In this document: one piece after another, positions 45,465 to 63,860 of the stretch
How the letters are laid out: the number at the start of each line of letters is the position of its first letter
How positions within the stretch are numbered: the stretch's first letter is position 1
Assembly: GCA_025526995.1 (NCBI GenBank)
Contig: JAHLKG010000013.1
Location: forward strand, 736,408-800,407
Origin: Powellomyces hirtus
Lineage: Eukaryota; Chytridiomycota; Chytridiomycetes; Spizellomycetales; Powellomycetaceae
DNA length: 64,000 nucleotides
Direction: 5' to 3'
Translations under genes and position numbers: made by a program
Notes under the pieces: model-generated
What the model saw: only the letters and a program-made list of their open reading frames with translations
Told to the model about the DNA's origin: nothing
The model's database searches: none

Positions 45465-45712
45465 ACTCAGTTTTCAAAGGCGCCTCTCTCCATCTTTTCC
45501 AATTTCTCTTCCAACACCTCCATGCTCTCTAGGTAGCTCTCTCTTCTTACTCTATATTTTTTTACTCGAAAAATTTCTGAGTGTCTGAGTGGCTGAGAAA
45601 CCATAGATCCGTTATAGCATCTGTAGAAATAATTGTTTTTTTCAAAAGACCCTATGAATTTATTTACTTTTTACCCCTTTTCCTCCTCTCAAAACTCCCA
45701 TTTCCAATCCTT
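45465..45712 (+). repeat. left terminal inverted repeat
   Basis: Pairs with 63619-63860. Conserved blocks from the outside inward: actcagttttcaaa, tccatg near 45529, tctgagtg, gtggctgagaaaccatagat, gttatagcat, and cctcctctcaaaactcccat. Matches are interrupted by small indels. Confidence 0.85.
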
Positions 45713-45757
45713 TCGCTCGCCGCTCTTAGCTTCATTACGCCTGCCATGTCCCTATCA

Positions 45758-46105
45758 TCATTCCTTGTCTTCTGTTTGGTCGCCAAAGACAGCAACAGGC
45801 TCTTCTGTCTTACCCCTCGTTGCTGCACGGCGGACATCAAACGACTTCTTTGGGGCTGCCTTCTTTTTGGAGTCTTCATCCTCCTTCTTTGGGGCTGCCT
45901 TTCGTTTCCTTGGAGTCTTTGGCTTGGATTCGCGGAGTAGTTCTTCGACGCGGTTCTCTGCCAAGTCCTTGTAGAAGGCGTCTAGGATCTCCCTCCTGAC
46001 ATTTTCAGGGACTATGGAGAACACTGGGTCGTCTTCAAAAGTTTTAACAATAGCGTCCACAGAAGCCTTGTCTTTAAATGTAGATGTCTCTCGGTTAAAG
46101 TACAT
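45758..46105 (-). CDS. element protein, basic C-terminus, unknown function
   Basis: 115 residues, starting at the ATG at 46105. The N-terminal half is a mixed helical segment (VDAIVKTFEDDPVFSIVP; REILDAFYKDLAENR). The C-terminal half is Lys/Arg/Pro-rich (TPRKRKAAPKKEDEDSKKKA), as in DNA-binding or packaged core proteins. It is the first gene inside the left repeat and is divergent from the next small ORF. No homologue recognised; a nucleic-acid-binding virion or nuclear protein is a guess. Confidence 0.6.
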   Translation of the reverse strand: MYFNRETSTFKDKASVDAIVKTFEDDPVFSIVPENVRREILDAFYKDLAENRVEELLRESKPKTPRKRKAAPKKEDEDSKKKAAPKKSFDVRRAATRGKTEEPVAVFGDQTEDKE

Positions 46106-46409
46106 GTTTTAATTATGAAGCTTCAAAATCTTTTTTTCATTCCTAACGCAGCTCCATCTGTCATTCGGTGGGATAAGTAAGGTAGAAAAACAAGAGTGCC
46201 AAATCAATGGTTCCGCTTCTCATCTCAGTGATGGAAACTCCCTTGGTATCGGAAAGATTAAGATCCAATCAATCTTCCCAATCAAAAACTCACGGTGCAA
46301 ATTAGTGTACGCGTCGCCAAACCGTACTGGTCATTTTCTTCCTTGGAGGCAGTTTATCGCGTCTTGCCTAGGACGTTATAAGCTTGTTACTTTAGTATAA
46401 CAAAAAACA
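46106..46409. promoter_or_regulatory. divergent intergenic region inside the element
   Basis: 304 AT-rich bases between two outward-facing small genes; probably holds both promoters. No ORF. Confidence 0.4.
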
Positions 46410-46754
46410 ATGAATTCGCCAAACGCGTCGCGTACAGTTGAATGCAACACGGAACACGAGTTCATACAAATTGCAATAGAGTACCGAAAGATTCATGGTG
46501 ATAATATAATGTGGATTGTAAGGCCCACTATCGAGAATAGAGGGCTCTTTCACAAATTGCTTTTGTATACCTCGTTCGTACATGTGTACAAAAGCAAGAT
46601 GCTTTGGAAGAACCGTAAAGGATTCATAGCATTCCAAAACATAAAGTCAGAGGACGGCAAACGGCACCAGCTCCTTGTCTTTGCTAGGTACCAATGCAAA
46701 AAGTTGGAGATTCATGATTTTTTGCAGATCAGTTACATTGACGAGAAGTACTAA
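46410..46754 (+). CDS. element protein, 114 residues, unknown function
   Basis: An intact ORF with a mixed alpha/beta look (HEFIQIAIEYRKIHGDNIMW; FARYQCKKLEIHDFLQISYI). It overlaps the end of the convergent fibre gene by four bases. No motif is recognised. Confidence 0.6.
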   Translation: MNSPNASRTVECNTEHEFIQIAIEYRKIHGDNIMWIVRPTIENRGLFHKLLLYTSFVHVYKSKMLWKNRKGFIAFQNIKSEDGKRHQLLVFARYQCKKLEIHDFLQISYIDEKY

Positions 46755-49700
46755 GAGGCTGCTATCAGTTGACCAGATAATTTCGATATGCAGTTCCAAT
46801 CCAAACCAGCGGTGTAGCAAGCGATTGTAGGGTTGAACTTTAACGAAATTATATCATTCGCGTTCAGTAGCAAATGAAATGTGCCTTGCACGGTTGAATA
46901 CTGGTTAGGGAACTGGGCATTGATGGTTGCTTGAGTGGAGATACGGTCTGGAGGTAGTTCTCCATTGACTTCAATGCAGAACATTATATTGTTATTCCCT
47001 ATAAAGTTGGTCAATCCAATCGAAACGTGGAATTGCCAAAGACCAGTTTTTGGAATAACATAGTCATAGGTCCCGTTCCTCCAACCAGATTGAACTCCTT
47101 TGTTGTATCTAGTTGTAGTGACCATTTGAATTTTGGTTACAACGTTGGCTGGTAGATTCTGGTAAGTAGTAATCTGCATGTTGTCAACCATGAAAAACGT
47201 GGGTACTTTTGAATCCACGGATCCATTGAGACTCAGATTCCCCACTGCATCCAATCGAGCGATTTGAGTAGTGCCCCCATACCACTTGAACCCTAAAGTG
47301 TTATTTGTATTAGGCACTGAATTCCATATGTGTCCCCCTTCCATCCCCACCGCATAATCGACATAGTCTGCAGCAATTTGTGGATAGAGGACGATTTTGG
47401 TTCCAGTCGACCGAGTTGAAAATGTCGGCGCTTGAACTCCAGCCGAAGAGAAATGAATCAAATTTCCGCTTGAAGCAGTGTTTGTAAGATTCAACAACCC
47501 GCCATTAAGCGCCAATTTACCAGTCATGTCTATGGTTGCTACTGCTATTTCGCTTTGACCAGCCAGTCGAGTGAAAAAGTAAAACGGTGTACCGTTGGCC
47601 CCAACCCCCCTACCGTCGATACGGAGAGCAGCCGCTCCACTTGTCGTAATAGGGGTGTGGCGGAAGTTAATCCCAATATTGAGGAGAGGGGTTGAACCCC
47701 CTACTTCAGTCATTATTCCGCAGGGAATTGTTCCTGTTCCAATGTTGATTGATTTCTGAACGCTTAGGCCTCCAGCTACCTGGAGGGCACCGGTTGTGGA
47801 AGAGGTGGACTCTCCTGTTGGCGTTATTACAACTGAAACAACTGGACTTAGATTTAGCGAACTTCCTGCTGTGGTGATACTACATGCGTTACCAGTATTC
47901 ATGTGAATGCGAGCACCTAGAGTTGCCGCGTCCCCATCATAGAATTGGATTCTCTGTGAAGTAGTTGTTCCGAATGCTGCGAGTAGTCCTCCGGTATCTG
48001 CTGCGACAGTTTTCATAAAATTGTTAACATTTCCTACAAACAAGTTTTTACCGATTCCAACACCTCCTGAAATCTGCAAGGCGCCGCTCGATGCCGATAC
48101 GGAATCCTCAGTGGAGATAATCTTTACAGCAGAGTGATCGAGGGCCAGCGGAAACCCGGCGGTGGTTGTTGTAAGACTAAAGGAAAAGTGACAGAAGGTA
48201 AAAGGTGTTCTTGTTCTGAGACACACAAGTCTTATGTACTTGTAGGAGCCTGCCGTAAAGTTTAGCGTATGACTTGGGACGTCTGGTATATTATCTTGGT
48301 CGACCGCCACTGTCATGGTCCCGGTTGATTGTCCAACTAGCACCGCGATTCTCAGAGGCATTGATGGAGAGGGTTCGCCGAGTCTTTGATAAATTGTCAC
48401 GGAAGAGATTGTTCGAGCAGCGGGGAGATCTACGGCAATCCATTCGCCCGGTACGAACGTACTATTTGAGTCAATCCAAGAGGCTGTTGAAGTAGTATAT
48501 ACACCAGTTGTCGAGTTATAAGTACCGTTTCCAGAGACCCATGGAGCGGTTAACCGTTCCGATTTGAAACCTCTGTAGGCTTCATATCCAGCCGAGTAGA
48601 TGCTTGAAGCCGTTAAAGTGTAAGTTCCATTCAAATGTTCCCACGTTGTTGGAGTAGAGGTTCCTGCCGTAAGGGCAGCTCCCCCTGCTGGAGGAAGAGG
48701 GACGGGGACTGTATCACTGCCCTTGATTTTACTCCAGACGGTGATCTCTTTGGAGGATGTAGTCCCTCCGGTTTCCAGAGAGACCACTCGACCCGTGAGG
48801 TTCGTGACATTAGTGTTTGTAGTAGTCAAGGATCCTATGGAGGCAAATGATCCATCAACATAAGTTTTGTTCACAAGATGGTTACCTAGAGTCGGCGCAG
48901 TGGCTACCGTAAGGTTTCCACTGTTGACAACCATACCTCCATCGAAAATATCAACGATTGAAGCATTTGTATTTGTCCCCAGACGAATCACTTTAGAGCC
49001 TGATGCTCGAATGATTGCATCTCCGGTTTGCGCATTTGAAAACCATTGTGTGTTTGCGCCACAACGTCCAAAGGACACGTTATCTGCTATAGACAGCGCT
49101 ACGCTTCCAGTGTTGGTTATATTGATGTAGCCATTGACCGATAATGCTGTAAGAGTCCCAACGGAAGTTATCTGCGTTTGGGCCGGATTTACAGAAAGAG
49201 TAGCTCCCGATTTCGAGAGCCCCGTACCTGCAGTGATTAGGTCCTGCTTGGAGGTGGAGAGGGAATCAACAGATGCTTTCGTTGCAATGATTCCCGGGTC
49301 ATAGCCCAAAGTGGACCCATTTAGCGTTAGGCCTGATGAGATGCTAATATTGTTCTGTTTCGATGTCTGGAGAGATGAAATATTAGATTCGGCTGTACCT
49401 ACACGGGTAGTCAAGGCGTCAACTGATGCCTTTGTTCCAAGAACGCTACTATCATAGCCTAAAGTCGACCCATTTAGCGTTAGGCCTGATGAGATGCTAA
49501 TATTGTTCTGTTTCGATGTCTGGAGAGATGAAATATTAGATTCGGCTGTACCTACACGGGTAGTCAAGGCATCAACAGAACTTTTGGTTCCAATAACGGT
49601 ACTATCAAAGGTCAAAGTCGACCCGGTGAGCGTCAGGCCCGTTCCTACAGAAAGGTTATTCTGCTTCCCGGTGAGCGTATTTTCAGCAGTGGTTACTCGT

Positions 49701-52700
49701 GTTGTAAGCGATGTCAGATTGGTGTTAGTCCCCCCCAAGGCTGTAATGGTTGCATACGTAGCATCCGTGAAGGTTCTATTCACAAGATGAGCTCCAATTG
49801 TAGGAGCTGCCGAAGCAGTGATAGTTTGTGAGAAGGTTGCATTGGATCCTGCGAGACCGTTACCAATAAACAGAGGTTTGTTAATCGTTACGGAATCCAA
49901 TGGAGTGAATAGTTCAAGGCGGACCCCACAGTAAGCGTACCCCCCGCCGTTAGTTAAACAGACCAACCTTATATAACTGTATGCTGTAGTGTTCGTCGAG
50001 GGGAACCATTTTGGATCACGGTTGGAATCGCTCCAACCAACGGGTGTAGACTGGTGATACAACAGATTCCAGGTTACCCCATCGCTCGAACCTAATATGC
50101 AGAATGTCTGGGGCATCCCAAGGATGTTGCCTCCATCCCTATAACGCAGCCTTGTAGCAGAGATACTTTTCGCTGCGGGGAGCTGGATTTGAATCCATTC
50201 TCCCTTGTACGAAACTCCCGCCGCTGTGGTTTCAGTTGTTCTACTGGACGTACCACCTGCACCCGTATACAGGTTTGTGAAGTACAGGGACGATCCCCAG
50301 TTGGCAAATGCCTTATGTGATCGGTTAACGTTATCACTATGCGAACAGGATATAACGTACGTTCCATTTCCCCACGCTTCTCCGGCCACGGTGGTTGTGG
50401 AGGGCTCACTATCTGTAAAGAAGACCGTGGAGGGGACCCATCGCTGCATCCCAAACACAACGTCACCAATGGCAGAGATTGTCTCTGATTGGTACGAGTT
50501 GATGGAAAGGACGTTGCCAGTCTTGACAAGCCCTTTTCCAACGGTTATGGGGCTGTTACTTTCCAAAATAGACACTTTGGCTTCCACAGCATCCAGAGCG
50601 ATTTCTGCCCCATAGAGTCGCCCGCCGTGGTTGGCGACTGATGACTCAGCAATGAGCAAACGCGTGTCCAATGGTTGAACGAGAGAACTAACGGTCTCAA
50701 TGGTCCAAGGCCTCGATATCTTCTCTTCAAACTCCCAAGTCTTTTCCAAGTTCATTCCATAGCACCACCTCCCAACCCTTACGTCCTCTGGCCAGGAGTC
50801 GAACATCAATGTTGTGCGTCTAGTATCCTTGTCTGAGTGAATAACAACATTGGATCCTTCGGACCAGATGTAGTTTCCATCATCATCGAGATCGTAGATT
50901 GGATTTCCATTCTCGTCAACTTGATCAGTACCGTCCGGATTCTTCTTCTTCTTGCGTTCCCGCTGGTACCCGAATATTACAGCAAACCCACCTAGGAAAC
51001 CAAGTAGCAAAGGGAGCACGCCAATAATGGGAAAGATCGGCACCAGAGGTATGGGAGGGATCGGGGGAAAAGGGATCAGCGGGAGGGGAAAGATCAAACT
51101 TGTTGGACTTGTCGACTGCACAACTTCATTGTTTTCGTTCTTCAGTGTGTCATCTTCGTTATCAGTCTTTTTCTCATCATCATCATCGTCCTGGGTCTTC
51201 AGGTTTTGGCTCGAGATTATGTAGCCAAACGCAGCGCTTCCAGTGACTGTTATTCCCATGCCCGCTGAAATGTTTAATGTATTTGAAATAGTCTTTCCAC
51301 TAACTGAAATACCACCCCCCCCACTGTAAGGGGTCTCCTCTGGGATGTTCACTGATATAGTTTGTCCCGAAATCGTCACATTGGAGCCTGCTGTATAGGG
51401 TTTCAATGTTGTGGAAACGGTGTTTCCCTGCACTTGGATGTGTTCGCTTCCTTGCAGATCGAGTGCCACGCTGTTGCCTGTTCTCTTTAAGCCCGTCTCA
51501 AAGGTCATGTTCTCCTTGATTGTGTTAAGTCCAACCTTCTCTAGTGCCCCCTCGACATTAAGCGCCAAAACGACATCGTTGTTGGTGCCCTCTCGAAGCC
51601 GCACTCCATTTGCCGATTGGAAAATGTAGCCACCGCTTATCTTACCATTCCCGTCGATCTTAACAGATGACCCATTAACCAAAGGAGAAACATTAACACC
51701 TAGATTGTTGTTGGCATCAACTTGTAAAGTTGCATCAGTGCGAACATTGAGAAGCCGTCTATTATTGGTTTCTGGTGCTACATCAATAGCCGAGCCACTT
51801 TGAATATACTGTGCTACATATGACTGCGTTACAGCCTCGTTTGAATTGGGATTGAAATTCTGACTAAGTTCTACATGCGGGACGGACAGCTCAGAGAGCG
51901 TGTCATTGTATTCCAGCCGACTAGAAACGTTAAACCCATCGAAGACCCCGTAGAATGGAATCTTATTGTTTCCTTTGGACTTGATAGCCAGGGCCTTGCC
52001 TCCAAACGATGCAAGTGTGTTCTTCTGGGTAAAGTCATCCGAGGTCCGCAATCTGATTAAAGAGATGTCTGTATCAGGTACTTCATCCGTCAGGTCTGCC
52101 AATGCGTCGTAGCCCAACTCGGTCAATTCATCCATTCCCATGTCAAAGATTCCACCGTTGTGAAGCGCCCCCAAGGGCTTCAGCACATCCTCAGTGTTAC
52201 TCACCAGTTCTCCGTCCTCCAGTTTCAGGCCTCGGCCGTAATTGAAAGTAATCGACCCGTCCTCCCCCCGCGCGATTGGCTCCGTCAAGGTTTCACGAAC
52301 AACCGAGAGCTGCCCTTCGGCATTCACCTGCAGTGTTGAATCATGGTCGAGTGTTAATTTACTTTCAGAATCAATAAATAATGGATCAGAGTAATCAAGT
52401 CCCAGCATCCCATGTTGGACCTTGAGTGACTCGTCAAGTAGTAGTTTAATCCCGTTGGCATCTCTGGCCAAAGGCGCCTGCAATGTTTCGGGAACAACCG
52501 AGAGATCTCCGTCTTCCTTGATCTCCAACGAGGCGTCATGGAACAAGGAGAGGCCTTCTTCTGTAACGCCAAATGGTGCCGCGGTAATTAGTTCAACGGT
52601 TTTGGATTCCATTTCATGACTTAGCGGAAACTCATACACATCCGGCTTGTAGTTCAGGACACCCTCATCTATCGATAGGTACTTGTCGTCAATCTCCAAT

Positions 52701-52939
52701 CCAAGGGACACAATGCCCTCCCCTTCTTTGGTGACAGTGATTGGATCCAAAGATGTAACATCGTTAACCAACAAAGGACCGTGCTTGTTCTCTATGGTAT
52801 CTGCAGCGACTTTTTGGAATCCAGTAATCTTGCTATTGGCAGTGAATGCCTTCATGTTGCCCGAGACAACGGGACTAATGAGGTTGGTATCCTCTAGATT
52901 TCGCAAGCCGGAGGACGTTCTACTGTTCAATCCGGACAT
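46751..52939 (-). CDS. giant fibre/spike-like structural protein, 2062 residues
   Basis: One uninterrupted ORF, a third of the element. Residues ~40-270 are short beta repeats in fibre-shaft style (SLEIKEDGDLSVVPETLQAP; STLQVNAEGQLSVVRETLTE). A Pro/Leu/Ile-rich hydrophobic segment at ~615-660 (PPIPLVPIFPIIGVLPLLLG) looks membrane-spanning. Residues ~836-1016 and ~1416-1596 each resemble a discoidin/F5-8C-type carbohydrate-binding module (GEWIQIQLPAAKSISATRLR; GEWIAVDLPAARTISSVTIY). Between them are 51-residue tandem repeats (SVDALTTRVGTAESNISSLQ). The last ~150 residues resemble a trimeric C1q/TNF-like head (KTGLWQFHVSIGLTNFIGNN). A trimeric host-attachment fibre is the best inference. Confidence 0.75.
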   Translation of the reverse strand: MSGLNSRTSSGLRNLEDTNLISPVVSGNMKAFTANSKITGFQKVAADTIENKHGPLLVNDVTSLDPITVTKEGEGIVSLGLEIDDKYLSIDEGVLNYKPDVYEFPLSHEMESKTVELITAAPFGVTEEGLSLFHDASLEIKEDGDLSVVPETLQAPLARDANGIKLLLDESLKVQHGMLGLDYSDPLFIDSESKLTLDHDSTLQVNAEGQLSVVRETLTEPIARGEDGSITFNYGRGLKLEDGELVSNTEDVLKPLGALHNGGIFDMGMDELTELGYDALADLTDEVPDTDISLIRLRTSDDFTQKNTLASFGGKALAIKSKGNNKIPFYGVFDGFNVSSRLEYNDTLSELSVPHVELSQNFNPNSNEAVTQSYVAQYIQSGSAIDVAPETNNRRLLNVRTDATLQVDANNNLGVNVSPLVNGSSVKIDGNGKISGGYIFQSANGVRLREGTNNDVVLALNVEGALEKVGLNTIKENMTFETGLKRTGNSVALDLQGSEHIQVQGNTVSTTLKPYTAGSNVTISGQTISVNIPEETPYSGGGGISVSGKTISNTLNISAGMGITVTGSAAFGYIISSQNLKTQDDDDDEKKTDNEDDTLKNENNEVVQSTSPTSLIFPLPLIPFPPIPPIPLVPIFPIIGVLPLLLGFLGGFAVIFGYQRERKKKKNPDGTDQVDENGNPIYDLDDDGNYIWSEGSNVVIHSDKDTRRTTLMFDSWPEDVRVGRWCYGMNLEKTWEFEEKISRPWTIETVSSLVQPLDTRLLIAESSVANHGGRLYGAEIALDAVEAKVSILESNSPITVGKGLVKTGNVLSINSYQSETISAIGDVVFGMQRWVPSTVFFTDSEPSTTTVAGEAWGNGTYVISCSHSDNVNRSHKAFANWGSSLYFTNLYTGAGGTSSRTTETTAAGVSYKGEWIQIQLPAAKSISATRLRYRDGGNILGMPQTFCILGSSDGVTWNLLYHQSTPVGWSDSNRDPKWFPSTNTTAYSYIRLVCLTNGGGYAYCGVRLELFTPLDSVTINKPLFIGNGLAGSNATFSQTITASAAPTIGAHLVNRTFTDATYATITALGGTNTNLTSLTTRVTTAENTLTGKQNNLSVGTGLTLTGSTLTFDSTVIGTKSSVDALTTRVGTAESNISSLQTSKQNNISISSGLTLNGSTLGYDSSVLGTKASVDALTTRVGTAESNISSLQTSKQNNISISSGLTLNGSTLGYDPGIIATKASVDSLSTSKQDLITAGTGLSKSGATLSVNPAQTQITSVGTLTALSVNGYINITNTGSVALSIADNVSFGRCGANTQWFSNAQTGDAIIRASGSKVIRLGTNTNASIVDIFDGGMVVNSGNLTVATAPTLGNHLVNKTYVDGSFASIGSLTTTNTNVTNLTGRVVSLETGGTTSSKEITVWSKIKGSDTVPVPLPPAGGAALTAGTSTPTTWEHLNGTYTLTASSIYSAGYEAYRGFKSERLTAPWVSGNGTYNSTTGVYTTSTASWIDSNSTFVPGEWIAVDLPAARTISSVTIYQRLGEPSPSMPLRIAVLVGQSTGTMTVAVDQDNIPDVPSHTLNFTAGSYKYIRLVCLRTRTPFTFCHFSFSLTTTTAGFPLALDHSAVKIISTEDSVSASSGALQISGGVGIGKNLFVGNVNNFMKTVAADTGGLLAAFGTTTSQRIQFYDGDAATLGARIHMNTGNACSITTAGSSLNLSPVVSVVITPTGESTSSTTGALQVAGGLSVQKSINIGTGTIPCGIMTEVGGSTPLLNIGINFRHTPITTSGAAALRIDGRGVGANGTPFYFFTRLAGQSEIAVATIDMTGKLALNGGLLNLTNTASSGNLIHFSSAGVQAPTFSTRSTGTKIVLYPQIAADYVDYAVGMEGGHIWNSVPNTNNTLGFKWYGGTTQIARLDAVGNLSLNGSVDSKVPTFFMVDNMQITTYQNLPANVVTKIQMVTTTRYNKGVQSGWRNGTYDYVIPKTGLWQFHVSIGLTNFIGNNNIMFCIEVNGELPPDRISTQATINAQFPNQYSTVQGTFHLLLNANDIISLKFNPTIACYTAGLDWNCISKLSGQLIAAS
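49314..49570 (-). repeat. 153-bp tandem repeat inside the fibre gene
   Basis: Two units with a 153-bp period (51 codons). About 104 bp (49314-49417 and 49467-49570) are identical at DNA level, which suggests recent unequal exchange. Confidence 0.9.
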
Positions 52940-53036: not shown

Positions 53037-54593
53037 TTACATAACTTTTTGTTGTTTGGCAGGTCTTGTTGCACCTACTGCTGCAGGTCGCTTCTTTCTA
53101 AGTCCTGTTGCTTCTTCAATCATTGGATTCACTTCAAAGTTTGGAGGAATGGCAAAGTCGACGTGTGGCTGACCGCGTAACTTGGCAATCGGTCGAAGGA
53201 GGCCAGCCGCTACGGCTTCCGTTCGTTGCGGGCGGGGGTCTATCACGGCCGTTGCATCGATCTGTGCATTGATGTTGCGTCCACGGCGTTGTTTAGTTAC
53301 CGCCTTGACGGACCTTAAAGTTATTTCCTCGACATCAGCATCAGTTCGTTGCTTCTTGTGAACAGTTGGTCTCCCAGGGGCACCGGCTAGTGCAACTCGC
53401 TTCACGCTTGGATTCAATCGGAACGCCTCTGGAAGATCTCCAACGCGTGGCTTTTGCGCAGGACGTCCGGAATCCTCCTCTGCATCATTGCTTCGCTTTA
53501 CACCACGGGTTGATACAGGATCCAATGTTTGCGCTCTGACTCTAGGATTTATGGTTTCGACCTGAACTTCCCTCGAGGGCTCCATCGGCCCCAGGGCAAT
53601 CCTTTCTTGTGCGGCATCCACAGTTCGTAGCACGGCCTTTTCAACTGTTGGCTTCTCCTTCTTGGGAGCCTTCAACCTTGCATAAGGCTTGCGACGAAGA
53701 TTGGCAAACGGAGAATGTGCAGACGCTGCAACAAAGGTATCTCGAGACATTTCAGTATTGGCAATGATATCCTCGACCTCTCTTGGATCGTTAATGGTCG
53801 TCAAGGCAATCTCTGCCTTTACTTCAATAGGTTCTGACTTGATGTAGAACGAATCCGTCATCTCTTCGTCTCTCTTTACATCAACAACACCCATGTCCGG
53901 GAAGGTGCCCGGCATCACTGGATCCTGATACTCGAAAGGATTACTTACGACAGGAGGCTTGAGGACGCTGCTGGAGCCCCAAGTGATAGTACCGGCCCCC
54001 GTTGCATTGTCGATGGAGATGGCCTTCTCCCTTGTAAGGATAACAGGGTTGATACGTGTGGAATTGGCGTTCAACTGATCGGCAGACTGCGGTACCTCGG
54101 GGAGATCGTGGGGCGCTTCAAACATCATACCAGTTGCAGCAGTTGTTGCGGCGTTGTAGTGGAACACATTGCCTTTGGTATCAGGGACAGGTAAGCCACT
54201 GGTGGAGGTAGAAGTTCCAATGCTTACGGTGTGATTCCTCCTAGATGGAGTGATGGAGTCGAGGTACCTTTCCTTTGCTCGAAAGTCCCGTTCGGCCTTC
54301 ACATATTCTTGGCCGTCCTTGTATGCCTTGGTATGATGTTCTCCAGCCGACATGCGCATGACTTCCGCAGACGATACTTGCTTTTCACGAACGGGGGCGG
54401 TATAGTTCTTCTTGGTGGCCATGTCCTTGTCATGGATGTTCCGGTTCCAAGAGTACGTCACATTGGGGCGGCCGTATTCGTCGAGGTCATTGTAATCCAA
54501 TGCCTGCCCGATCTGGTGTCGTTGGACATTAGGCACACCTTTACTCTGGTTGATTCCCTGGAACTCCAGGTAGTTTGCTCTATAGAAAGCCAT
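53037..54593 (-). CDS. element protein, 518 residues, probable virion component
   Basis: An intact ORF starting 12 bp from the divergent gene at 54606. The N-terminal ~100 residues are polar and aromatic (MAFYRANYLEFQGINQSKG), then a long low-complexity, Pro/Arg/Lys-rich chain with repeated short motifs of the form R-x-P/V-x (INPRVRAQTLDP; LRKKRPAAVGATRPAKQQKV). The strongly basic C-terminus suggests contact with DNA, as in core or cement proteins of related viruses. No homologue recognised. Confidence 0.6.
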   Translation of the reverse strand: MAFYRANYLEFQGINQSKGVPNVQRHQIGQALDYNDLDEYGRPNVTYSWNRNIHDKDMATKKNYTAPVREKQVSSAEVMRMSAGEHHTKAYKDGQEYVKAERDFRAKERYLDSITPSRRNHTVSIGTSTSTSGLPVPDTKGNVFHYNAATTAATGMMFEAPHDLPEVPQSADQLNANSTRINPVILTREKAISIDNATGAGTITWGSSSVLKPPVVSNPFEYQDPVMPGTFPDMGVVDVKRDEEMTDSFYIKSEPIEVKAEIALTTINDPREVEDIIANTEMSRDTFVAASAHSPFANLRRKPYARLKAPKKEKPTVEKAVLRTVDAAQERIALGPMEPSREVQVETINPRVRAQTLDPVSTRGVKRSNDAEEDSGRPAQKPRVGDLPEAFRLNPSVKRVALAGAPGRPTVHKKQRTDADVEEITLRSVKAVTKQRRGRNINAQIDATAVIDPRPQRTEAVAAGLLRPIAKLRGQPHVDFAIPPNFEVNPMIEEATGLRKKRPAAVGATRPAKQQKVM

Positions 54594-54605
54594 TCTCTTT
54601 ACACT
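54594..54605. promoter_or_regulatory. shared TCTTTACA-containing start region
   Basis: Only 12 bases (tctctttacact) separate two divergent start codons. The octamer TCTTTACA recurs in the 35-base gap between the ATPase and minor-capsid starts (about 55717), so it is a candidate late-promoter motif. Confidence 0.45.
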
Positions 54606-54990: not shown

Positions 54991-55704
54991 CTAGTAATAG
55001 TCCTTGAAGCCATCCTTGTCGCAGTATCTATACATGGTTTTGGCGTCATCGGCTGCCAAATTAATATAACAGAATGAATAAGGCTCCCGGGTGCACTCGA
55101 TAAGATATTCTAGAACTTCCTTTCGGTTCTTATACGCAGAGGTGAGCAGTCGCGCCAAGATTTCCATGTCTTCCGCATTGTTCTTAAAAATGATCCATTC
55201 CGTGGTGTTATTCTTTTGTTTCGATGACAACTGCGATCGAACGGACTGCACGACAACTATGGAGGAACACAGGGTATGTCTTCCTTTGCAGTATAGATTG
55301 GACAGTTCCTTGTTGAGATTTTTCCCTTGAGCATCGTTTCCTGCATCGTCTATGTAAAGCAAACATGTCCGCCCATCCTCGGCCAATTCCTTTTGTTCAT
55401 TGAGGATCTCTCTAATGGTGGTGTTATTGACTTCATCCGTAAAGTATATGTTCCTATGCTTTGTTTTGTTAGCCAACTGTTGGATGCTCTTATCATAGAG
55501 CACAGTGTCAGACATGATGATTACACGGTCGAACACATTGGCATAAACTTCGTCAATCAAACCACATACCAAAGCGGATTTTCCACTCTTTCTTGGAGCG
55601 ACTATGGTGGTACAAATGGGAACATCCTGAATATCGAGCGGGATTCGAGGATCTCGTACTTTCTTTTTAGTAGGAAAGATGGGCTTCGGCTTGTACGAAG
55701 GCAT
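54991..55704 (-). CDS. genome-packaging ATPase (A32/FtsK-HerA type)
   Basis: 237 residues from the ATG at 55704 (MPSYKPKPIFPTKKK); the frame runs on upstream, but the shorter start leaves room for the divergent minor-capsid gene. Walker A is TIVAPRKSGKSALV, with Lys42 as the phosphate-binding lysine. Walker B is TCLLYIDDAGND. A sensor-like segment SSIVVVQSVRSQL follows. These features match the packaging ATPases of Polintons, virophages and nucleocytoplasmic viruses, which pump DNA into capsids. Confidence 0.88.
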   Translation of the reverse strand: MPSYKPKPIFPTKKKVRDPRIPLDIQDVPICTTIVAPRKSGKSALVCGLIDEVYANVFDRVIIMSDTVLYDKSIQQLANKTKHRNIYFTDEVNNTTIREILNEQKELAEDGRTCLLYIDDAGNDAQGKNLNKELSNLYCKGRHTLCSSIVVVQSVRSQLSSKQKNNTTEWIIFKNNAEDMEILARLLTSAYKNRKEVLEYLIECTREPYSFCYINLAADDAKTMYRYCDKDGFKDYY

Positions 55705-55739
55705 TAATATTTCCTCTTCTTTACATAAAGCAGAGAAGA

Positions 55740-56468
55740 ATGTACGGCGAGTTCCTTTACTCATCTCTGAAGCAACGTGTCTACAACATCCAACCAAGGC
55801 GGGTGGAGGCGTTCAAGATTCTCTCCGTCTCGTTCTTGCAAGACTGGGATCTTGTAGAGAGAGGGATTAACGACCGGGTGGCATTCGCGGAGCAAGGCAA
55901 TGACACTGTGCTATACGCAACCATCCCTAACGGTAACTACTCGATTGTGAATTTTGGCGACGCTATCGCATCTGCCTTGACGGCAGCCTCGGGAGTTGGC
56001 AACACCTATGAAGTGTCATATAGCCCGGTAAGCAGGCGGTTGACAGTTTCTACAAATGGTTCGGTACCCTTCAAACTCCTCGAAGGGTACCGAGGAACTT
56101 CGTCATATGTATTGACTGGCATGTCGAGCCGGTACGAAAGCGGGTATGGGACCAGCCATACTCTAAAGAACCCTGTTAACCTTAGCGGAAGTTATCCGGT
56201 GCTACTGACTTCCAACATCTCCGTAAAGGGTCAAGTGTATCTCACTGACTACACCGATGCTGCGCAGTCTATCGTGGCCTCCATGACACCGGATAGTTTC
56301 GGAGACATTGTCACTTGGACGAACGATGGAGGCGAATACCTCCCGGTGGAAGAAACGGTCACTCGTGTAGAGTTCCACCTTGTTAACAGCCTCACGGGAA
56401 CAGAGGTTTCCTTAAATAGCCCTTTATCTGTGCGTTTCGCTATTCTAGACGATAAAAGCGATGTGTAA
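55740..56468 (+). CDS. minor capsid (penton-like) protein, single jelly roll
   Basis: 242 residues. The N-terminus is MYGEFLYSSLKQRVYNIQPR. The pattern LYATIPNGNYSIVNFGDAIA followed by YEVSYSPVSRRLTVSTNG is common in minor capsid proteins of Polinton-like viruses and virophages. The remaining beta-rich chain ends in VEFHLVNSLTGTEVSLNSPL. Placement next to the ATPase and major capsid genes supports the call. It would form the pentamers at capsid vertices. Confidence 0.8.
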   Translation: MYGEFLYSSLKQRVYNIQPRRVEAFKILSVSFLQDWDLVERGINDRVAFAEQGNDTVLYATIPNGNYSIVNFGDAIASALTAASGVGNTYEVSYSPVSRRLTVSTNGSVPFKLLEGYRGTSSYVLTGMSSRYESGYGTSHTLKNPVNLSGSYPVLLTSNISVKGQVYLTDYTDAAQSIVASMTPDSFGDIVTWTNDGGEYLPVEETVTRVEFHLVNSLTGTEVSLNSPLSVRFAILDDKSDV

Positions 56469-56496: not shown

Positions 56497-57012
56497 ATGA
56501 GCAAGGAAGATTCCAAATTGCAACAACAAGATTCGAGTGCCGATGGGGATCCTGCAGAGGAAATCCAATCGGTGCAAGATACCGATCAACAGCCTGAACA
56601 AGAACAGGTACGAGAGCCAGAGGTAGCTCCGGCACCCACCAAGAAGCCACGCTCTCCTGCCCAGATAGCAGCCATGAAGAAGGCCACCGAGGCACGAGCC
56701 AAGAACCTCCGAGAGATGCAGGCCCGGAAGAAGAAGGAGGATGCGGTCCTAGAAAAGCAACGAAAGATCGACGAGGCGAAACGCATTCTTGAAAAGGAGA
56801 AGGAGGAACGCAGAATTAAGCGCGAGGCACGGAAGAAGGCGTTGGAAGAAAAGCAAAAAGCCAAGCCTGTACCCAAAGCGCAAACTAAACCAAAGGCAAA
56901 GGCCGCCGCTCCATCGCCTGCTCCTGCCACCAATCCATACACAACCTTTGTAGAATTCGATCAGTCAGAAAGTGAAGAAAGTGAAGATGATTACGGAGGT
57001 ATTTTTGGATGA
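56497..57012 (+). CDS. Lys/Glu-rich coiled-coil protein of the capsid module
   Basis: 171 residues. The segment KKPRSPAQIAAMKKATEARA, followed by a long charged helix (RKKKEDAVLEKQRKIDEAKR), resembles short proteins frequent in Polinton-like and giant-virus genomes with the motif 'Q..al.kareaR'. The tail is acidic (SESEESEDDYGGIFG). It sits 28 bp after the minor capsid gene and 31 bp before the major capsid gene, so a scaffold or DNA-binding assembly role is possible. Confidence 0.65.
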   Translation: MSKEDSKLQQQDSSADGDPAEEIQSVQDTDQQPEQEQVREPEVAPAPTKKPRSPAQIAAMKKATEARAKNLREMQARKKKEDAVLEKQRKIDEAKRILEKEKEERRIKREARKKALEEKQKAKPVPKAQTKPKAKAAAPSPAPATNPYTTFVEFDQSESEESEDDYGGIFG

Positions 57013-57043
57013 TCTTATTATTTTTTTTCTACAGCTGTAGTAA

Positions 57044-58294
57044 ATGTCTGAAGTAGCAACTGTTCCTCGTAACTGGATCTACGCCTCCAATACATTCGCA
57101 AGATCCTTCTCAGACCCTCGTGGTGAGGGAGTGGTGGTGTACTCACCGATTGGCCAAAGTGAGTACTCGACCAAAAGTCGCAACCTTACACCTATCAAGA
57201 TTTCATGCGACTCCAATTCTGTGAACTTCATCCTTCAGAAACTTATTTTGTCCATGGACATCACTGCAGTCAACGATGGAGCACCGGTGAGCGGGGCTGG
57301 TATTGTCAACACCAAACTAGGAATGGAAGCAATTATTCAAAGCCTCACGATCAAAGCAGGGGGGGAAACAATGACACGCATCGATAATTGGCCTGCATAC
57401 CTTGCCCAAACTTACCGTAACTTGAATAAAGGCCACAAGCAACTTCTCCATAACCTGAACGGATATGGAACCTCCAATGTCTTCTCCGGGACTCATACCG
57501 CTAGCGTGAGCATGCATCCCATGGTGGGCTGTTTCCATCCCACTAATGACCAGTTCTTCCCCGTCTGGGCACTTCCTAACCAAGCATTGACCATTGAAAT
57601 CGTTCTCGCAGATCCAAGCACAGTTTTTACCAGTGGCAACGTCAACGAGATTAAAGTATCTAACATTAGATGTTTGGTTCCTTACATCACTCCGCCCCCT
57701 AGTGTAATCGTAAACGTAACTCGCGGTCTTGGCGCCGGCAAGAGTATCTTTTACGACTACGTTCGCTCGACGCAGACCGAGAACCCTTGCTCTGGTGGTC
57801 AAAGAAATACCTTCAACCTACATATGTCAGGTGTAAGGTCGTTGGTTGGAATTGAATGTTCCTTTGTCGACGATGATGTTCTTTCTGACCCCACCAAAGA
57901 CAAGTCTGAGATGTTCTCTTCGCAGAACTTGAGACAGTGGAGGTTGCAGTTGGGAGCCAATGCTACAATTCCCTCCGGTACAACTGGCTTTACCCATAGT
58001 CCCTACGACCGCCAAACTCTCCTAGTAAGCCATCTAAGCAACAATGATTTTGAACAGATGGCAGATCTCGACATCTCCTTTTCGGATTATGACCAAAAGC
58101 AATTTTCATTCAGTTACGGATTCCAATCGAAAGACGAAGGCTCTAACGCCGCACTTTCTTTTACCGGAACGGATGCTATCCTTAAGGTTCACACGGAACA
58201 CGCTGCTCCGCCTCCAAGCCAGCGCGTTCGAATGTTGACTACTTATCACGAGAATGTGACTTTGAGTATTGGCGGGATGGTCGCGGTACTTTGA
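57044..58294 (+). CDS. major capsid protein, double jelly-roll
   Basis: 416 residues. The first jelly roll starts near YSTKSRNLTPIKISCDSNSV and contains LQKLILSMDI and MEAIIQSLTIKAGGE. The linker region FFPVWALPNQALTIEIVLAD is the typical strand between rolls in this superfamily. The second roll has RNTFNLHMSGVRSLVGIECS and QMADLDISFSDYDQKQFSFS. Size and layout agree with hexon-forming capsid proteins of Polinton-like viruses. The start is at a single good ATG 31 bp after the preceding stop. Confidence 0.85.
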   Translation: MSEVATVPRNWIYASNTFARSFSDPRGEGVVVYSPIGQSEYSTKSRNLTPIKISCDSNSVNFILQKLILSMDITAVNDGAPVSGAGIVNTKLGMEAIIQSLTIKAGGETMTRIDNWPAYLAQTYRNLNKGHKQLLHNLNGYGTSNVFSGTHTASVSMHPMVGCFHPTNDQFFPVWALPNQALTIEIVLADPSTVFTSGNVNEIKVSNIRCLVPYITPPPSVIVNVTRGLGAGKSIFYDYVRSTQTENPCSGGQRNTFNLHMSGVRSLVGIECSFVDDDVLSDPTKDKSEMFSSQNLRQWRLQLGANATIPSGTTGFTHSPYDRQTLLVSHLSNNDFEQMADLDISFSDYDQKQFSFSYGFQSKDEGSNAALSFTGTDAILKVHTEHAAPPPSQRVRMLTTYHENVTLSIGGMVAVL

Positions 58295-58561: not shown

Positions 58562-58606
58562 GGCCGGTCATTGCAGATATTATGTACAATACAGCTAAAG
58601 AAAATC

Positions 58607-59968
58607 ATGTCATTCGTTCCATTGACATCCGAAGAGGAAACGCTTGTAGCAAAAGTATACGAAAAGTTCCCGTTTGGAAGAGACCGGCTTGTTGATGCAG
58701 TCCAAACTGAGCATCCTAATTTTAAAGGCAGTGAACGCGCAGTGTTGTATTGGTTAAAGGACCAACCTTCTTGGCAAAGCCAAAACAAGCCGACTACTAA
58801 GCGCTCGATCATCGCGCCCCTCCAAATTACTAAGCCCGGCTACCTCCAACTAGATAACGTTAGTCTACGAACATATGCAGATAACGGTTACATTGGCTAT
58901 ACACACTTTATAGACGGGTTCACTAAAAAGTCTTGGGCACGTCCACTTAGAACTGAGACGGAAAAGGAAACCGTGGATGCCATTGAATCCATGTTGGACG
59001 AGATGAAAAGGGAGGGGAAGAAGGTTACTATAATCCAATCAGATAATGGAAGTACCTTTCAAGCACAATATAGGGCTTTGTTAGATTCACGTAACATCAA
59101 ATATATATATTCTGCTCCTGCTAGACCTCAATCAAATGCGTTCGTAGAAAGAATTGGACAAGTAATCAATCAGGCGCTCTTCAGGCTCATGGAGCTGAAT
59201 GGGGACAGAAAATGGGTATCACGCTTCCAAGGGGTGATTGATTCTATCAATCAGTCAAAATCTTTTGCGACAGGCATGGTGCCGAATGCGTTAGAAGGAG
59301 GTGATGATGAAGCGCAAGAGAAGGCAAAGGCAAAAATTGCCTCAACGCTTGCCTCGCGCTATAAGACAAAGAAGATAATGCGTCCAATCTATGTCGGGCA
59401 AAAGGTACGTACACGTAGGATCCTGCAGTCAAGTGTTAAGAAGCCAGGCCTTCTCGGGTATTGGAATAAGGAAATTTTTACTGTTGTCCAACGGATCAAC
59501 TCGACTTATGCAAATATTCTGCCATCTTACCGGTTAGTAAATTCAAGTGGCGTTCTCCAAAAAGGTAGATATGCTAGAACTGATCTTTTAGAGTTGCCTC
59601 CAATACTTAGCAGTGATAAAGTAGAGAACGTGACGGATGACGAAGAAGAGGAAGGAGAAGAAGAAGTGTCCAATGACCTTGTGAACAGGAGCGACAGAGA
59701 TGAAACAATTCCAAGTCCCGCTGCTAAATCATCCAAGTCAATGGTTCGCAGGAAATCGTTAAGAATCCAAAACACGCAAAATGAAGACGAGGAAGCAGAG
59801 TATGAGATTGATTTTATTGTGGGAGACAGGAGTTACAGAGGTGAAACACAGTATAAAGTCAGGTACACGGGATACACAGCAAACGACGACGAGTGGAGGG
59901 GTGAAAGGGAATTGCTAGATTTGGCTCCGGGACTTGTGATGGATTACCGTCTCCTCCACGATGATTGA
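58607..59968 (+). CDS. retrovirus-type integrase with C-terminal chromodomain (DD35E)
   Basis: 453 residues from the ATG at 58607. The catalytic triad is complete: Asp83 in GYLQLDNVS, Asp146 in IIQSDNGSTF and Glu181 in AFVERIGQV, giving exact D-D-35-E spacing. An N-terminal ~60-residue helical domain precedes it. An acidic linker (DDEEEEGEEEVSNDL) leads to a chromodomain (FIVGDRSYRGETQYKVRYTG ... DEWRGERELLDLAP). Polinton integrases have this same core-plus-chromodomain plan. The chromodomain may guide insertion to marked chromatin. Confidence 0.93.
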   Translation: MSFVPLTSEEETLVAKVYEKFPFGRDRLVDAVQTEHPNFKGSERAVLYWLKDQPSWQSQNKPTTKRSIIAPLQITKPGYLQLDNVSLRTYADNGYIGYTHFIDGFTKKSWARPLRTETEKETVDAIESMLDEMKREGKKVTIIQSDNGSTFQAQYRALLDSRNIKYIYSAPARPQSNAFVERIGQVINQALFRLMELNGDRKWVSRFQGVIDSINQSKSFATGMVPNALEGGDDEAQEKAKAKIASTLASRYKTKKIMRPIYVGQKVRTRRILQSSVKKPGLLGYWNKEIFTVVQRINSTYANILPSYRLVNSSGVLQKGRYARTDLLELPPILSSDKVENVTDDEEEEGEEEVSNDLVNRSDRDETIPSPAAKSSKSMVRRKSLRIQNTQNEDEEAEYEIDFIVGDRSYRGETQYKVRYTGYTANDDEWRGERELLDLAPGLVMDYRLLHDD

Positions 59969-61059
59969 GTGGAATCCCTGAAGACGTAGTCCCTCCAATA
60001 GCGATTGTTTTCCTCCTTAGAGTGGTGGCAGTCCGCAGCGAATTGAGTATGTTCTTGTTTGGTCAAGCCCATGTCCCGAACTCTGGTGATTTGGGAGCGT
60101 CTTATCACCGAGATGTTATGTCCAGTTGCGATTTTGACTCTGTTTCGGTAAGGTTCGAATCTCTTATCGTCTGTGGCGTTGTTCATCAAAGGTTTTCCAT
60201 CCCTGTTGAGGAAAATGTACTTGGACTTCTCCTTCTTGGATCTGTATTTGTTCACAAATTTGGAAAGAAGTTGTCCAACGCGCTCCGGTTCCATAAAAGG
60301 AATAGGTAGAACGGTGTTCAACGGTTGGATGTACCGCGTATTGTCGATCAGATCCTCTACCTCGTCGGCTCTTTGTTTGCCTTTCTTGATTCGATCCACC
60401 TTTCTTTTGTTCCAAATGATGACACTGGTCCCAGTTTTTCCAGCTGGAAAAAAGAGATTGTCCTTTTCCTTGTCTGCATCAGGGTGAAAGGCGTTCACGA
60501 GAGTTGCCATGTTGGATCTAGAGTGAGGCATCAAGAATTGGGTCGCTGCAATAACATCATCTTGGCGATCGAGGATCTTCTGATTGCTAGGATAGTCCAT
60601 GTCGTAAATGCTGCTACTGTCCTCTAATCTTTGCGAAATCTTGGCAACTTCAGGGGCATATTCGAATACCTCTCCTTCTCCTGCTTCGACTTGTTGGTTG
60701 TATGGCTGTTTAAGGATTTGAATTGCCTCATCGTAGCGTTTCAATAAGTGGAGATGTTCCTCTTTGGTCATGTCGAGAGGGACATGACCGATCTCCTTTA
60801 AGAAAAGGCGGACTGTTCCGATGGCTTGCGCCTCGCTGTTGTCCACTTCAAGGTTATGGCAAGAAAAGACAATGGTCTTCATTTTGGAGATGTCGGTAAC
60901 ATTTTCCTTGTGAGCAAAGGCACCCTTGGCTTTGTATTTGGATAGGTTCGTCACGGCACGTTTCCTTTTTCCGTAGATACTCTTCTTTTCCGCAATTAGA
61001 GGATGACCGTCGGGTAAGGTGTAAAATGCGGCAATGTCCAAAGTGTCCAAAGTATACAT
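59944..61059 (-). CDS. tyrosine recombinase
   Basis: 371 residues, its stop overlapping the integrase stop by 25 bp. The C-terminal part carries the recombinase pattern: Arg320-321 in HNISVIRRSQITRVRDMG, His345 in AADCHHSKEEN and Tyr354 in NNRYWRDYV, with the usual 8-residue gap between His and the nucleophile Tyr. YIFLNRDGKPLMNN upstream is also typical. The N-terminal ~220 residues should hold the core-binding domain (EEHLHLLKRYDEAIQILKQP) but are divergent. Tyrosine recombinases occur in some Polinton-like viruses and Cryptons. Expected to integrate or resolve circular intermediates. Confidence 0.8.
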   Translation of the reverse strand: MYTLDTLDIAAFYTLPDGHPLIAEKKSIYGKRKRAVTNLSKYKAKGAFAHKENVTDISKMKTIVFSCHNLEVDNSEAQAIGTVRLFLKEIGHVPLDMTKEEHLHLLKRYDEAIQILKQPYNQQVEAGEGEVFEYAPEVAKISQRLEDSSSIYDMDYPSNQKILDRQDDVIAATQFLMPHSRSNMATLVNAFHPDADKEKDNLFFPAGKTGTSVIIWNKRKVDRIKKGKQRADEVEDLIDNTRYIQPLNTVLPIPFMEPERVGQLLSKFVNKYRSKKEKSKYIFLNRDGKPLMNNATDDKRFEPYRNRVKIATGHNISVIRRSQITRVRDMGLTKQEHTQFAADCHHSKEENNRYWRDYVFRDSTQSSWRRR

Positions 61060-61388: not shown

Positions 61389-63536
61389 TCAGAGTTGTCT
61401 AATCACATACTCGATGGCTGGCAAGGTCATTGCGTTGCCCAAGAGTCGCTTCTTGTCTGTATCCCCCAATCCCTCACAGCTTGTATAATCATCCGGCAAT
61501 CCCTGCAGACGTTCCCTCTCCCGGACCGTATAGTGTCTGAAGTCTCCATTGACTAAAACGATCGTTTGGTAACAATCGCCGGTTACTAATGTTAAGGCCT
61601 TCTGATCCGTACGAAAGTAAACCGTACTTGTTGCCGTGTTGCGCCTGATGGAACACACTCGGTCTTTGGGCGGGTTTGATGGAAGATCCTTATACTTTGT
61701 GACTCGATAGCGCTTGTCAAGCTCGATGATGTCTTGTAGCTTTGGCGATGGCCTTTCCAATGGCTGATGTACATACCAATTACACCAATAAAGGCGTTTT
61801 CGATTTTGTGCTGTCCAATGGTGCGCGTTTATTTCGACCGGATTGACTTTAAGCTCGTTCGAAATTTTCGCTAATGGTTCTGGTGACATTGGGACGTTTT
61901 CGAGTAGAAAGTGCTGCGGCGCTTTGGATTCTAAGATTCGTAAAAAACAATCGAATAGCTTACTCCGTTCATCGTCAAAGTTCGTCCGGTTATTGCTTTG
62001 TCGTGAGAACGGTTGGCATGGAATCCCACCGACAAGAAGGTCAAAGTCAGGCAGGGCATCGGGCTTAAGCTCTAGGGCATCTCCGAAGTTTTGATGCTCT
62101 GGGAAATGCTTACGGTAAACGGTGAGAGCGCTTGGATCGATTTCAGAGTATCCAACGCATACTGCATTCCTAAAGACGCTATGTATCGCGCTTTCCGCTG
62201 TGCCAATCCCGGCACAAAGGGAAAAGTACCGGAGATGTCGATCCATGCTAGGCTCCTTATAGATCCTCATGTTAACACCCGGAATGTAACCAATTTCACC
62301 AAACACTTCAACAAAGCGAGGAGCGTAGGGATAGCTGTCGTCGGTGTCCAAGTAACATAGACTTCTAGAATAGAAGTCCCCATTGTAGAGAGTCCCATCA
62401 TTTTTTTCGAAAGCTACTAGACGACTTATCAAGCATACAAGTGCCTTTGGAAGAACTTCGATGTTCCAATTGCCATAACTTCGTTGTGGGATCAATGCGA
62501 TGACGCGTTTGACGTTGCCCTTGCGCATTTCGTCAAAGCATTTCTCCCAAAAGTACCGATGTAAGTGCTTTTCGTTTTGGGTTTTTTCCTTGTCGCTCTC
62601 CGCAGTTCCAGGTGCGTTCAAATAAACAAAGTTGGTATCAGGTTCCCAGTCATCTATGGATAGAGCGTTAACAAAGCTACCGTCCGCCGCATATCCGTAT
62701 TTCTTTTTAGCCTTGAGTTTGCTGAACGGGTTGGAACAGGGATCTAAATCCACTCCACCAGTGAACTGTTCGATTAGATCGCATAACCACTGCGGGGTGT
62801 TGAAAACATTCCTGACTTGCGGAAAACCGTACGCTTTCTTCTTAACTGGCGCTACTTCGGCTTCCGACTCGCTGCTAGAGGAGTCGACGTAGGATACGGG
62901 ACGTTTCGTCCGTTGGCCTTTTCCAAGCGTAGCGTTAGCCGGCGAGATGCAATCGTTAGGGTCGGCAGCTAGAAAACCGCTGTCGCTTGTCTCACTCTCT
63001 TCTTCGGATTCAGCGGTAGTAGTATCCTTCCCGGCCTCTTTTGAAGAAATTAGGTACATCGGCGACGTCGGCGTCGGCGGTAGCGCTGATGCCGCCAGTG
63101 TCGGAGGTGGCGGTGGCTGCCCATAAATGTCGGCAAAGCGGCTAGCAACTGTGTCATCTCTGCCCTCGAAGTATACAAGTGCAGCTTTCCATACTGTCTC
63201 TGGTGACTCGTTTCGCTTCCGCGACCAGGCATCTACTGCAATACATAGTGTAGCGTTGGAAGGTAGCTCCTCTTTAGGGAATGTCTTCTCTAAGACGGAG
63301 ATCACACGTCCGGCAACACTCAACCGGTTTCCAACACCTCGCTTGAGCTTCCATTTGTTTTCGAGGTAATTCTCAAAGCTAGAGAAGTTCCGCTGCTTGT
63401 AGAGTTTATGTTCGCGGATTGTATAGAGCGCTTTAACCGTCGTAAAGAACCCCTCTGTCGGTGGAAGGTTGATCGTGAGGTACGCTGCATCAATCTGCTT
63501 CTCGTGAAGATCAAGTGTGGCAGTGGAGCTACTCAT
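61389..63536 (-). CDS. fusion DNA methyltransferase: phage-type adenine MTase-like plus C5-cytosine MTase
   Basis: 715 residues from the ATG at 63536. Residues ~37-80 (YKQRNFSSFENYLENKWKLK) resemble a DNA-binding segment found in phage proteins. A disordered Ser/Pro/Glu linker follows. The first catalytic-like domain starts at NTPQWLCDLIEQFTGGVDLD, with DLDPCSNP at 263 and NAPG at 307-310 where the adenine MTase family has NPPY. The second domain is a complete C5-cytosine MTase: SLCAGIGTAE at 439, GGIPCQPFSR with catalytic Cys507, LLENVP, AQNRKRLYW, and RLQGLPDDY with LLGNAMTLP at the end. Cytosine methylation is expected; activity of the adenine-type half is doubtful because of the NAPG motif. 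Confidence 0.9.
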   Translation of the reverse strand: MSSSTATLDLHEKQIDAAYLTINLPPTEGFFTTVKALYTIREHKLYKQRNFSSFENYLENKWKLKRGVGNRLSVAGRVISVLEKTFPKEELPSNATLCIAVDAWSRKRNESPETVWKAALVYFEGRDDTVASRFADIYGQPPPPPTLAASALPPTPTSPMYLISSKEAGKDTTTAESEEESETSDSGFLAADPNDCISPANATLGKGQRTKRPVSYVDSSSSESEAEVAPVKKKAYGFPQVRNVFNTPQWLCDLIEQFTGGVDLDPCSNPFSKLKAKKKYGYAADGSFVNALSIDDWEPDTNFVYLNAPGTAESDKEKTQNEKHLHRYFWEKCFDEMRKGNVKRVIALIPQRSYGNWNIEVLPKALVCLISRLVAFEKNDGTLYNGDFYSRSLCYLDTDDSYPYAPRFVEVFGEIGYIPGVNMRIYKEPSMDRHLRYFSLCAGIGTAESAIHSVFRNAVCVGYSEIDPSALTVYRKHFPEHQNFGDALELKPDALPDFDLLVGGIPCQPFSRQSNNRTNFDDERSKLFDCFLRILESKAPQHFLLENVPMSPEPLAKISNELKVNPVEINAHHWTAQNRKRLYWCNWYVHQPLERPSPKLQDIIELDKRYRVTKYKDLPSNPPKDRVCSIRRNTATSTVYFRTDQKALTLVTGDCYQTIVLVNGDFRHYTVRERERLQGLPDDYTSCEGLGDTDKKRLLGNAMTLPAIEYVIRQL

Positions 63537-63551
63537 TTTGGAACGGGGTTG

Positions 63552-63578
63552 AAAAGTGTTCAAAGTTTGAACACTTTT
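63552..63578. promoter_or_regulatory. perfect 27-bp palindrome before the methyltransferase gene
   Basis: Arms aaaagtgttcaaa and tttgaacactttt around one central g, 15 bp upstream of the start codon at 63536. A symmetric operator for a dimeric regulator, possibly the methyltransferase itself, is a reasonable guess. Confidence 0.65.
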
Positions 63579-63618
63579 TGGACACCTGACGGAGTTTAAT
63601 TACGTAAGGCCATACGCG

Positions 63619-63860
63619 CCAAAATGGGAGTTTGAGAGGAGCAAATAAGGGCATATCCAAATATTTTCTTTACGGTTCCAAATAAAAACAGTTTTACTCT
63701 TCATGCTACAACGCATCTATGGTTTCTCAGCCACTCAAGCACTCAGAAAATTTTCGAGGGAAAAAAATAATACAGTAGTAAGAGAACCTTACTAGACGTC
63801 ATGGAGGGAAGGAAAGACAGAGTCCGAAATGATGGAGGCAAGAGCTTTTGAAAACTGAGT
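63619..63860 (-). repeat. right terminal inverted repeat
   Basis: The reverse complement matches 45465-45712 in order, with blocks tttgaaaactgagt (outer end), atctatggtttctcagccac, cactcagaaa and atgggagtttgagaggagc (inner end). Confidence 0.85.

Follow-up and report, generated by a model that had tools for sequence, protein, structure and literature searches.

An integrated Polinton-like virus (PLV) of the kind known from Spizellomyces punctatus, a chytrid of the same order as the host, lies at the right-hand edge of the window analysed here, a stretch of 64,000 nucleotides corresponding to positions 736408-800407 of contig C13 (800,407 bases) of Powellomyces hirtus (genome of 29.26 Mb, 60 contigs). 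The ends of this element and of its relatives in the same genome are palindromes of 52-54 bp, and the reading to which we assign a probability of roughly 0.6 is that such ends fold back or are closed as hairpins and that a recombinase-like protein of the virus acts on the palindromes. A more specific version, in which a fungal Polinton-like lineage would combine foldback telomeres, hairpin-templated copying, processing by a tyrosine-type recombinase and integration by a retrovirus-like integrase, is put forward tentatively, at somewhat less than even odds. To our knowledge, it has not been settled how DNA ends are copied in small eukaryotic capsid-bearing elements that lack a protein-primed polymerase; a hairpin mechanism is suggested by ends whose sequence changes but which remain palindromes. 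The P. hirtus genome offers dated and replicated examples in its seven elements, which have six types of end, and its one lone palindrome. The presence of a recombinase-like gene alongside a DDE integrase would separate getting in from finishing the ends; if the more specific version is true, a small eukaryotic virus would possess a system for resolving telomeres.

In the proposed mechanism, the ends of the viral DNA would be folded back or closed as hairpins, and during replication one arm of each palindrome would serve as the template for the other. The ends would be copied through, opened to full palindromes and then inserted by the integrase, and the sequence shows that it is the chromodomain integrase of the virus itself that inserts the element, with a 5-bp target duplication. 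Less firmly, the tyrosine-recombinase-like protein would most likely act on the palindromes, either resolving replicated ends or recombining the ends of the provirus.

Terminal palindromes

Seven capsid genes, all without an internal stop, are present in the genome; the earlier note on this DNA had proposed looking for further copies in related genomes, and in this one six capsid-bearing elements besides that of the window were found. All seven are named here after their contigs as C13 (element 1, in the window), C50 (element 2), C8, C25, C3, C30A and C30B. The left end of the window element is a perfect 54-bp palindrome (44839..44892, no strand assigned). A search of the genome with an end pattern gave 16 matches, against 0 for a reversed-pattern control, and the right end of the C3 element is an additional palindrome which the pattern missed; the inventory therefore consists of 14 element ends, one end on contig C7, one on contig C11 and one lone copy. 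The DNA examined contains 16 perfect palindromes of at least 24 bp, and each of them belongs to this inventory; the central pair of the C7 end is mismatched.

Comparison of the arms (six types, seven rows) shows that 20 of the 27 pair positions vary and that 182 of the 184 cells are complementary, the two others being single positions in the right end of C3 and in C7. Among the inner 14 pairs, 83/84 fit their own partner compared with 161/420 when paired with the partners of other types, and among the outer 12 pairs the corresponding counts are 72/72 and 280/360. The outer part is thus conserved, and the inner part is variable provided that both arms change together. Since the arms co-vary between virus types, one arm probably acts as the template for the other in replication; foldback copying of one arm from the other would yield exactly this pattern, for which no simpler cause is known to us, and the free viral DNA would accordingly be expected to have hairpin ends. 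An unlikely alternative is that the palindromes are only double binding sites, for the integrase or some other dimeric protein, which selection maintains on viral DNA with ordinary, open ends. The outer 12 bp, which are conserved between types, lie where the integrase must act, and the 5-bp target-site duplications (TSDs) place its action exactly at the palindromes, but the inner 14 positions differ from type to type and yet stay self-complementary, a combination that selection on a fixed site would not predict.

A lone 52-bp palindrome stands at C3:481967-482018 between CATGC repeats and looks like an excision scar; its sequence is exactly that of the left end of the C3 element, and neither side carries a terminal inverted repeat (TIR). 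Recombination of two provirus ends, whether homologous or carried out by the recombinase, would leave this product, and another way to it would be for the integrase to insert a bare palindrome. The lone copy also bears on a further alternative, judged somewhat less probable still than the binding-site explanation, in which the palindromes are recombination sites of the recombinase-like protein and the provirus is excised as a circle, leaving one palindrome and involving no hairpin telomere. This would suit both the 5-bp repeats around the lone copy and the occurrence of a recombinase-like gene together with the integrase in the seven elements. However, a palindromic crossover region gives recombination no direction, a circle with one palindrome leaves the full palindrome at each end of new insertions unexplained, and homologous recombination between the ends could produce the same scar, of which there is a single case.

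The integrase and the recombinase-like protein

The integrase gene of the window element (58607..59968, + strand) encodes an rve core (D83, D146, E181) and a C-terminal chromodomain, which score 38.1 bits (cut-off 32.6) and 25.4 bits (cut-off 25.1) in Pfam, respectively. The second gene (59944..61059, - strand) encodes a tyrosine-recombinase-like protein of 371 amino acids, named at the motif level. Both genes occur together in all seven elements; the recombinase-like gene adjoins the integrase gene in convergent orientation in C13, C50, C30A, C8, C25 and C3, and the candidate in C30B adjoins the capsid gene. The recombinase-like proteins have in common a C-terminal R...(G/H)H(S/T)...Y pattern, which we take to be the tyrosine-recombinase motif. 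Since the 5-bp TSDs identify the rve enzyme as the one that integrates, the second enzyme probably has another role, the candidate being, by analogy of the palindromes in size with telomere-resolvase sites, action on the palindromes.

Several points weigh against foldback ends that are processed by this protein. The outer 12 bp are conserved as expected of a binding site, and the palindrome evidence comes from assembled, integrated copies. The window recombinase-like protein matches Pfam Phage_integrase at an E-value of 0.02 (15.1 bits), below the cut-off of 27.1; no Pfam family was returned for the corresponding proteins of C8, C25 and C3 and no relevant one for that of C30B. The structure model of the window protein is poor (predicted local distance difference test score of 42.6) and gave no useful structural match, and no profile match to protelomerases was obtained in a test that also failed to link phage integrases to protelomerases. 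The window and C30A proteins are not detectably similar to those of C8, C25 and C3 in a profile comparison that lacked power. Furthermore, there is a single lone palindrome, and with seven occurrences of CATGC in the 199 bases that flank it, its duplication is not as secure as those of the other sites. A distant element on contig C26 has no perfect palindrome of at least 24 bp in the 20 kb examined.

Towards its N-terminus the recombinase-like protein shows a likeness to sigma-70 region 1.2 that is probably due to chance (NCBIfam E-value of 0.001, far below the cut-off; Pfam E-value of 0.055).

Borders of the window element and assembly context

The final base of the window is the final base of C13, so that the right window edge is the contig end, and the element, which starts on the left at 44839, is cut off there at 64000. 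About 19.2 kb of it lies inside the window, compared with 24.8 kb for C30A, and C50 carries it onward past window position 63998 into a frame resembling the start of the C30A primase-polymerase. The element is consequently not complete in the window, contrary to the earlier note, which had placed its ends at matched inverted repeats at 45465 and 63860. These arms exist (45465..45703, + strand, and 63622..63860, - strand) but are internal and 74% alike (243 alignment columns), and they were rejected as ends because the likeness among C13, C50 (two places) and C19 extends out to 44838, where the perfect palindrome starts. The left arm lies within the TIR and the right arm is an internal, third partial copy of it; C30A, in which both ends are present, likewise has a third, weaker partial TIR copy internally, between the primase and methyltransferase genes, and the supposed right end is therefore an internal repeat.

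The left TIR of the window element is 918 bp long (44839..45756, no strand assigned) and identical in 918/918 bases to the right end at C50:108-1025. The 5-bp target duplication CCCCC has its left copy at 44834..44838 (no strand assigned) and its right copy on C50 from base 1026; this duplication is weak alone because it is within a C tract. Runs of 30-37 C also occur in host DNA at window 24003-24039 and 43608-43637. Directly inside the palindrome is a tandem array of a 12-base unit in 6.3 copies (44894..44968, + strand), and a similar short-unit array occupies the equivalent position in C30A.

Copies, insertion sites and age

Both ends are present on one contig in five elements (24.1-25.2 kb), with 5-bp duplications of AATGT in C30A (24,759 bases), GGCGT in C30B (25,195 bases), TCGGA in C8 (24,956 bases), ACGGA in C25 (24,606 bases) and ACCGT in C3 (24,118 bases); the interior sequence was covered in full for C30A and C30B and in part for C8, C25 and C3. 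Element 1 (left end on C13, right end at C50:108-1025) and element 2 (left end at C50:3910, right end on C19) were paired across contigs through CCCCC and GCGTC, respectively, and are 99.5% alike over 19,162 columns. Target duplications of 5 bp thus flank 7/7 elements. When the two flanks of element 2 are joined, the reading frame of a retrotransposon is open again, and 38 of the 40 matches scored among 140 candidates run unbroken over 1-295, the remaining two covering 2-295 and 3-295. Similarly, 36/40 rows are unbroken across the joined-flank site of C25. To judge from these alignments, the uninterrupted retrotransposon copies represent empty sites; the C8 insertion site is single-copy.

The earlier note would have been overturned by an assembly chimera with contaminating viral contigs. 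The window element does stop at a contig end, C50 is a contig of 23.9 kb and near-identical copies break the assembly, but such a chimera is excluded because of the TSDs at 7/7 elements, which stand between host flanks, and the empty sites in retrotransposon copies. In addition, five elements sit inside contigs of 0.3-1.9 Mb, and the chance of an artefact is negligible. Fragments are also present: C7 has one element end and broken fibre pieces without a capsid match (covered to 335000), and on C11 the contig start carries one end of an element of the C8 type.

The two TIRs agree in 918/918 bases in element 1, 915/918 in element 2, 727/731 in C30A and 1328/1330 in C30B, which corresponds to 99.5-100% agreement over TIRs of 731-1330 bp in the four elements compared; the insertion of the window element looks recent, as inferred in the earlier note. 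The ratio of non-synonymous to synonymous substitution rates (dN/dS) between elements is 0.03-0.21 where dS is unsaturated, dS being saturated in most other pairs, and the genes were therefore under selection before insertion. Young insertions of old, selected virus lineages would fit these values better than copying within the genome. That the elements are dead, decaying relics without recent virus activity appears very improbable. The integrase contains 14 stop codons in C25 and two in C3, the C25 ATPase is split, and in the C50 copy the fibre frame (longest piece 1532 of 2062) and the primase start are interrupted; these features of decay stand against the near-identical TIR pairs, the low dN/dS and the 11 window genes that were checked and are all open.

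Relation to known elements

The element is a Polinton-like virus belonging to a published group, as the earlier note had proposed for a zoosporic fungus. It combines a double jelly-roll capsid protein, an A32/FtsK-type ATPase, TIRs with a short TSD and an rve integrase; the primase-helicase replication gene is found in its relative C30A, the window holding only the first codons of such a gene. No PolB family, as would be required of a strict Maverick/Polinton, was found in the scanned proteins of the window, C30A, C30B, C3, C8 and C25 (small frames and the unread parts of C8, C25 and C3 lying outside the scan). The earlier note had regarded the host group as poorly described for such viruses, which does not hold, since a PLV in the chytrid S. 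punctatus, with a PLV group named after it, is described in passages of a 2021 paper (Bellas and Sommaruga, PMC7805220) and a capsid of "Powellomyces chytrid fungus MELD virus 5" has been deposited. The S. punctatus group resembles the present elements in being integrated in a chytrid with TIRs and short TSDs, 5-7 bp being reported for some elements (PMC7805220, in part), and the window capsid shares about two thirds of its residues with S. punctatus proteins (68% identity for SPPG_02195). The words "palindrom" and "hairpin" are absent from the main text of that paper. MELD virus 5, compared by its capsid entry alone, is from the same host genus and its capsid is 65% identical, but not identical, to the window protein. 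Relatives of the capsid also occur in Spizellomyces, Phlyctochytrium, Gaertneriomyces and another P. hirtus assembly.

The perfect 52-54 bp palindromes at the ends fall within the size of N15-type hairpin-telomere sites (50-56 bp), the phage records listing a 56-bp inverted repeat for N15 and a 50-bp telRL feature for phiKO2. A telomere-resolvase site and enzyme have also been proposed for phaeoviruses (2026; passages of PMC13236599). Both systems share with the present elements a palindrome of resolvase-target size and a recombinase-like gene, but theirs is one internal site, whereas here a palindrome stands at each end of the integrated element and a DDE integrase with TSD integrates. Cryptophyte PLVs, as described in passages of PMC12220804, likewise have TIRs, capsid genes and either an rve integrase with TSDs or a tyrosine recombinase, whereas stand-alone genes of both kinds are present here in all seven elements; the main text of that paper contains neither "palindrom" nor "hairpin", and no description of palindromic ends for PLVs was found in a search of the open-access literature. 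What sets the virus apart is its palindromic ends, whose arms change together, and its two-enzyme set; as a virus it is a new member of the published group.

Other genes and neighbouring features

Long uninterrupted frames encode the capsid protein, the penton candidate, the ATPase, the integrase, the methyltransferase, the 371-residue recombinase-like protein and a 2062-residue fibre-like protein. The intact frames for capsid, ATPase, integrase and methyltransferase given in the earlier note were thereby confirmed, the ATPase and integrase exceeding their Pfam cut-offs; its penton, fibre and tyrosine recombinase frames are equally uninterrupted, although the recombinase falls below its cut-off and the penton and fibre labels derive from size, position and synteny. 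The structure check that it recommended for the major capsid protein (57044..58294, + strand) gave a predicted double jelly-roll fold. The penton candidate (242 amino acids, 55740..56468, + strand), also labelled from its conservation, returned no family in the Pfam scan, and the packaging ATPase (54991..55764, - strand) matches Pox_A32 at an E-value of 3.6e-6 (27.1 bits, cut-off 22.8). The fibre-like protein (46751..52939, - strand) contains an internal 153-bp duplication, and its residues 900-1001 match the phage tail family phrog_17517 (E-value of 3.3e-5, in the PHROGs scan only). The DNA methyltransferase (61389..63536, - strand) has a C5-cytosine domain at residues 428-715 and a phage methyltransferase-like stretch at 219-383.

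Smaller proteins are conserved among the elements, including one of 115 amino acids (45758..46105, - strand) kept in C8 (98%) and C7 (70%), one of 114 amino acids (46410..46754, + strand) kept in C8 and C7, one of 518 amino acids (53037..54593, - strand) kept in C3, C8 and C25 (90-96%) and in C30B (35%), and a charged protein of 171 amino acids (56497..57012, + strand) kept in C3, C8 and C25. The final ~113 residues (MEAIYF...) of a frame at 54333..54947 (+ strand) also recur in C3, C8 and C25. The first codons of a primase-polymerase/helicase (63955..64000, + strand), cut by the contig end, are named from their likeness to C30A:117265-119706, which scores 82.5 bits against Prim-Pol in Pfam (cut-off 22.8). 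Outside the element, a host frame split into exons (window 42800-44753, - strand) has its start codon 86 bases from the start of element 1, which lies upstream of it, and contains an EGVPSTA-type kinase motif, presumably CDK-like.

Four different replication cassettes accompany related virion genes, namely Prim-Pol/DUF5906 in C30A (L020:2265-4706), an origin-binding-protein-like superfamily 2 (SF2) helicase in C30B (L017:3141-6086), a D5-type protein of 923 amino acids in C3 (L024:4619-7390) and a D5_N pair of 533 and 564 amino acids in C8 (L012:6467-9782). C30B also encodes a papain-family protease (L019:2983-4053) with Peptidase_C1 above the cut-off and a C-terminal CBM_5_12-like chitin-binding stretch slightly below it, and response-regulator receiver domains occur in C30B (L017:6243-6626) and C8 (L013:8810-9493). 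The distant element C26:286489-299237 has an ATPase 29% and an integrase 24% identical, with a 468-amino-acid frame beside the ATPase, in the capsid position.

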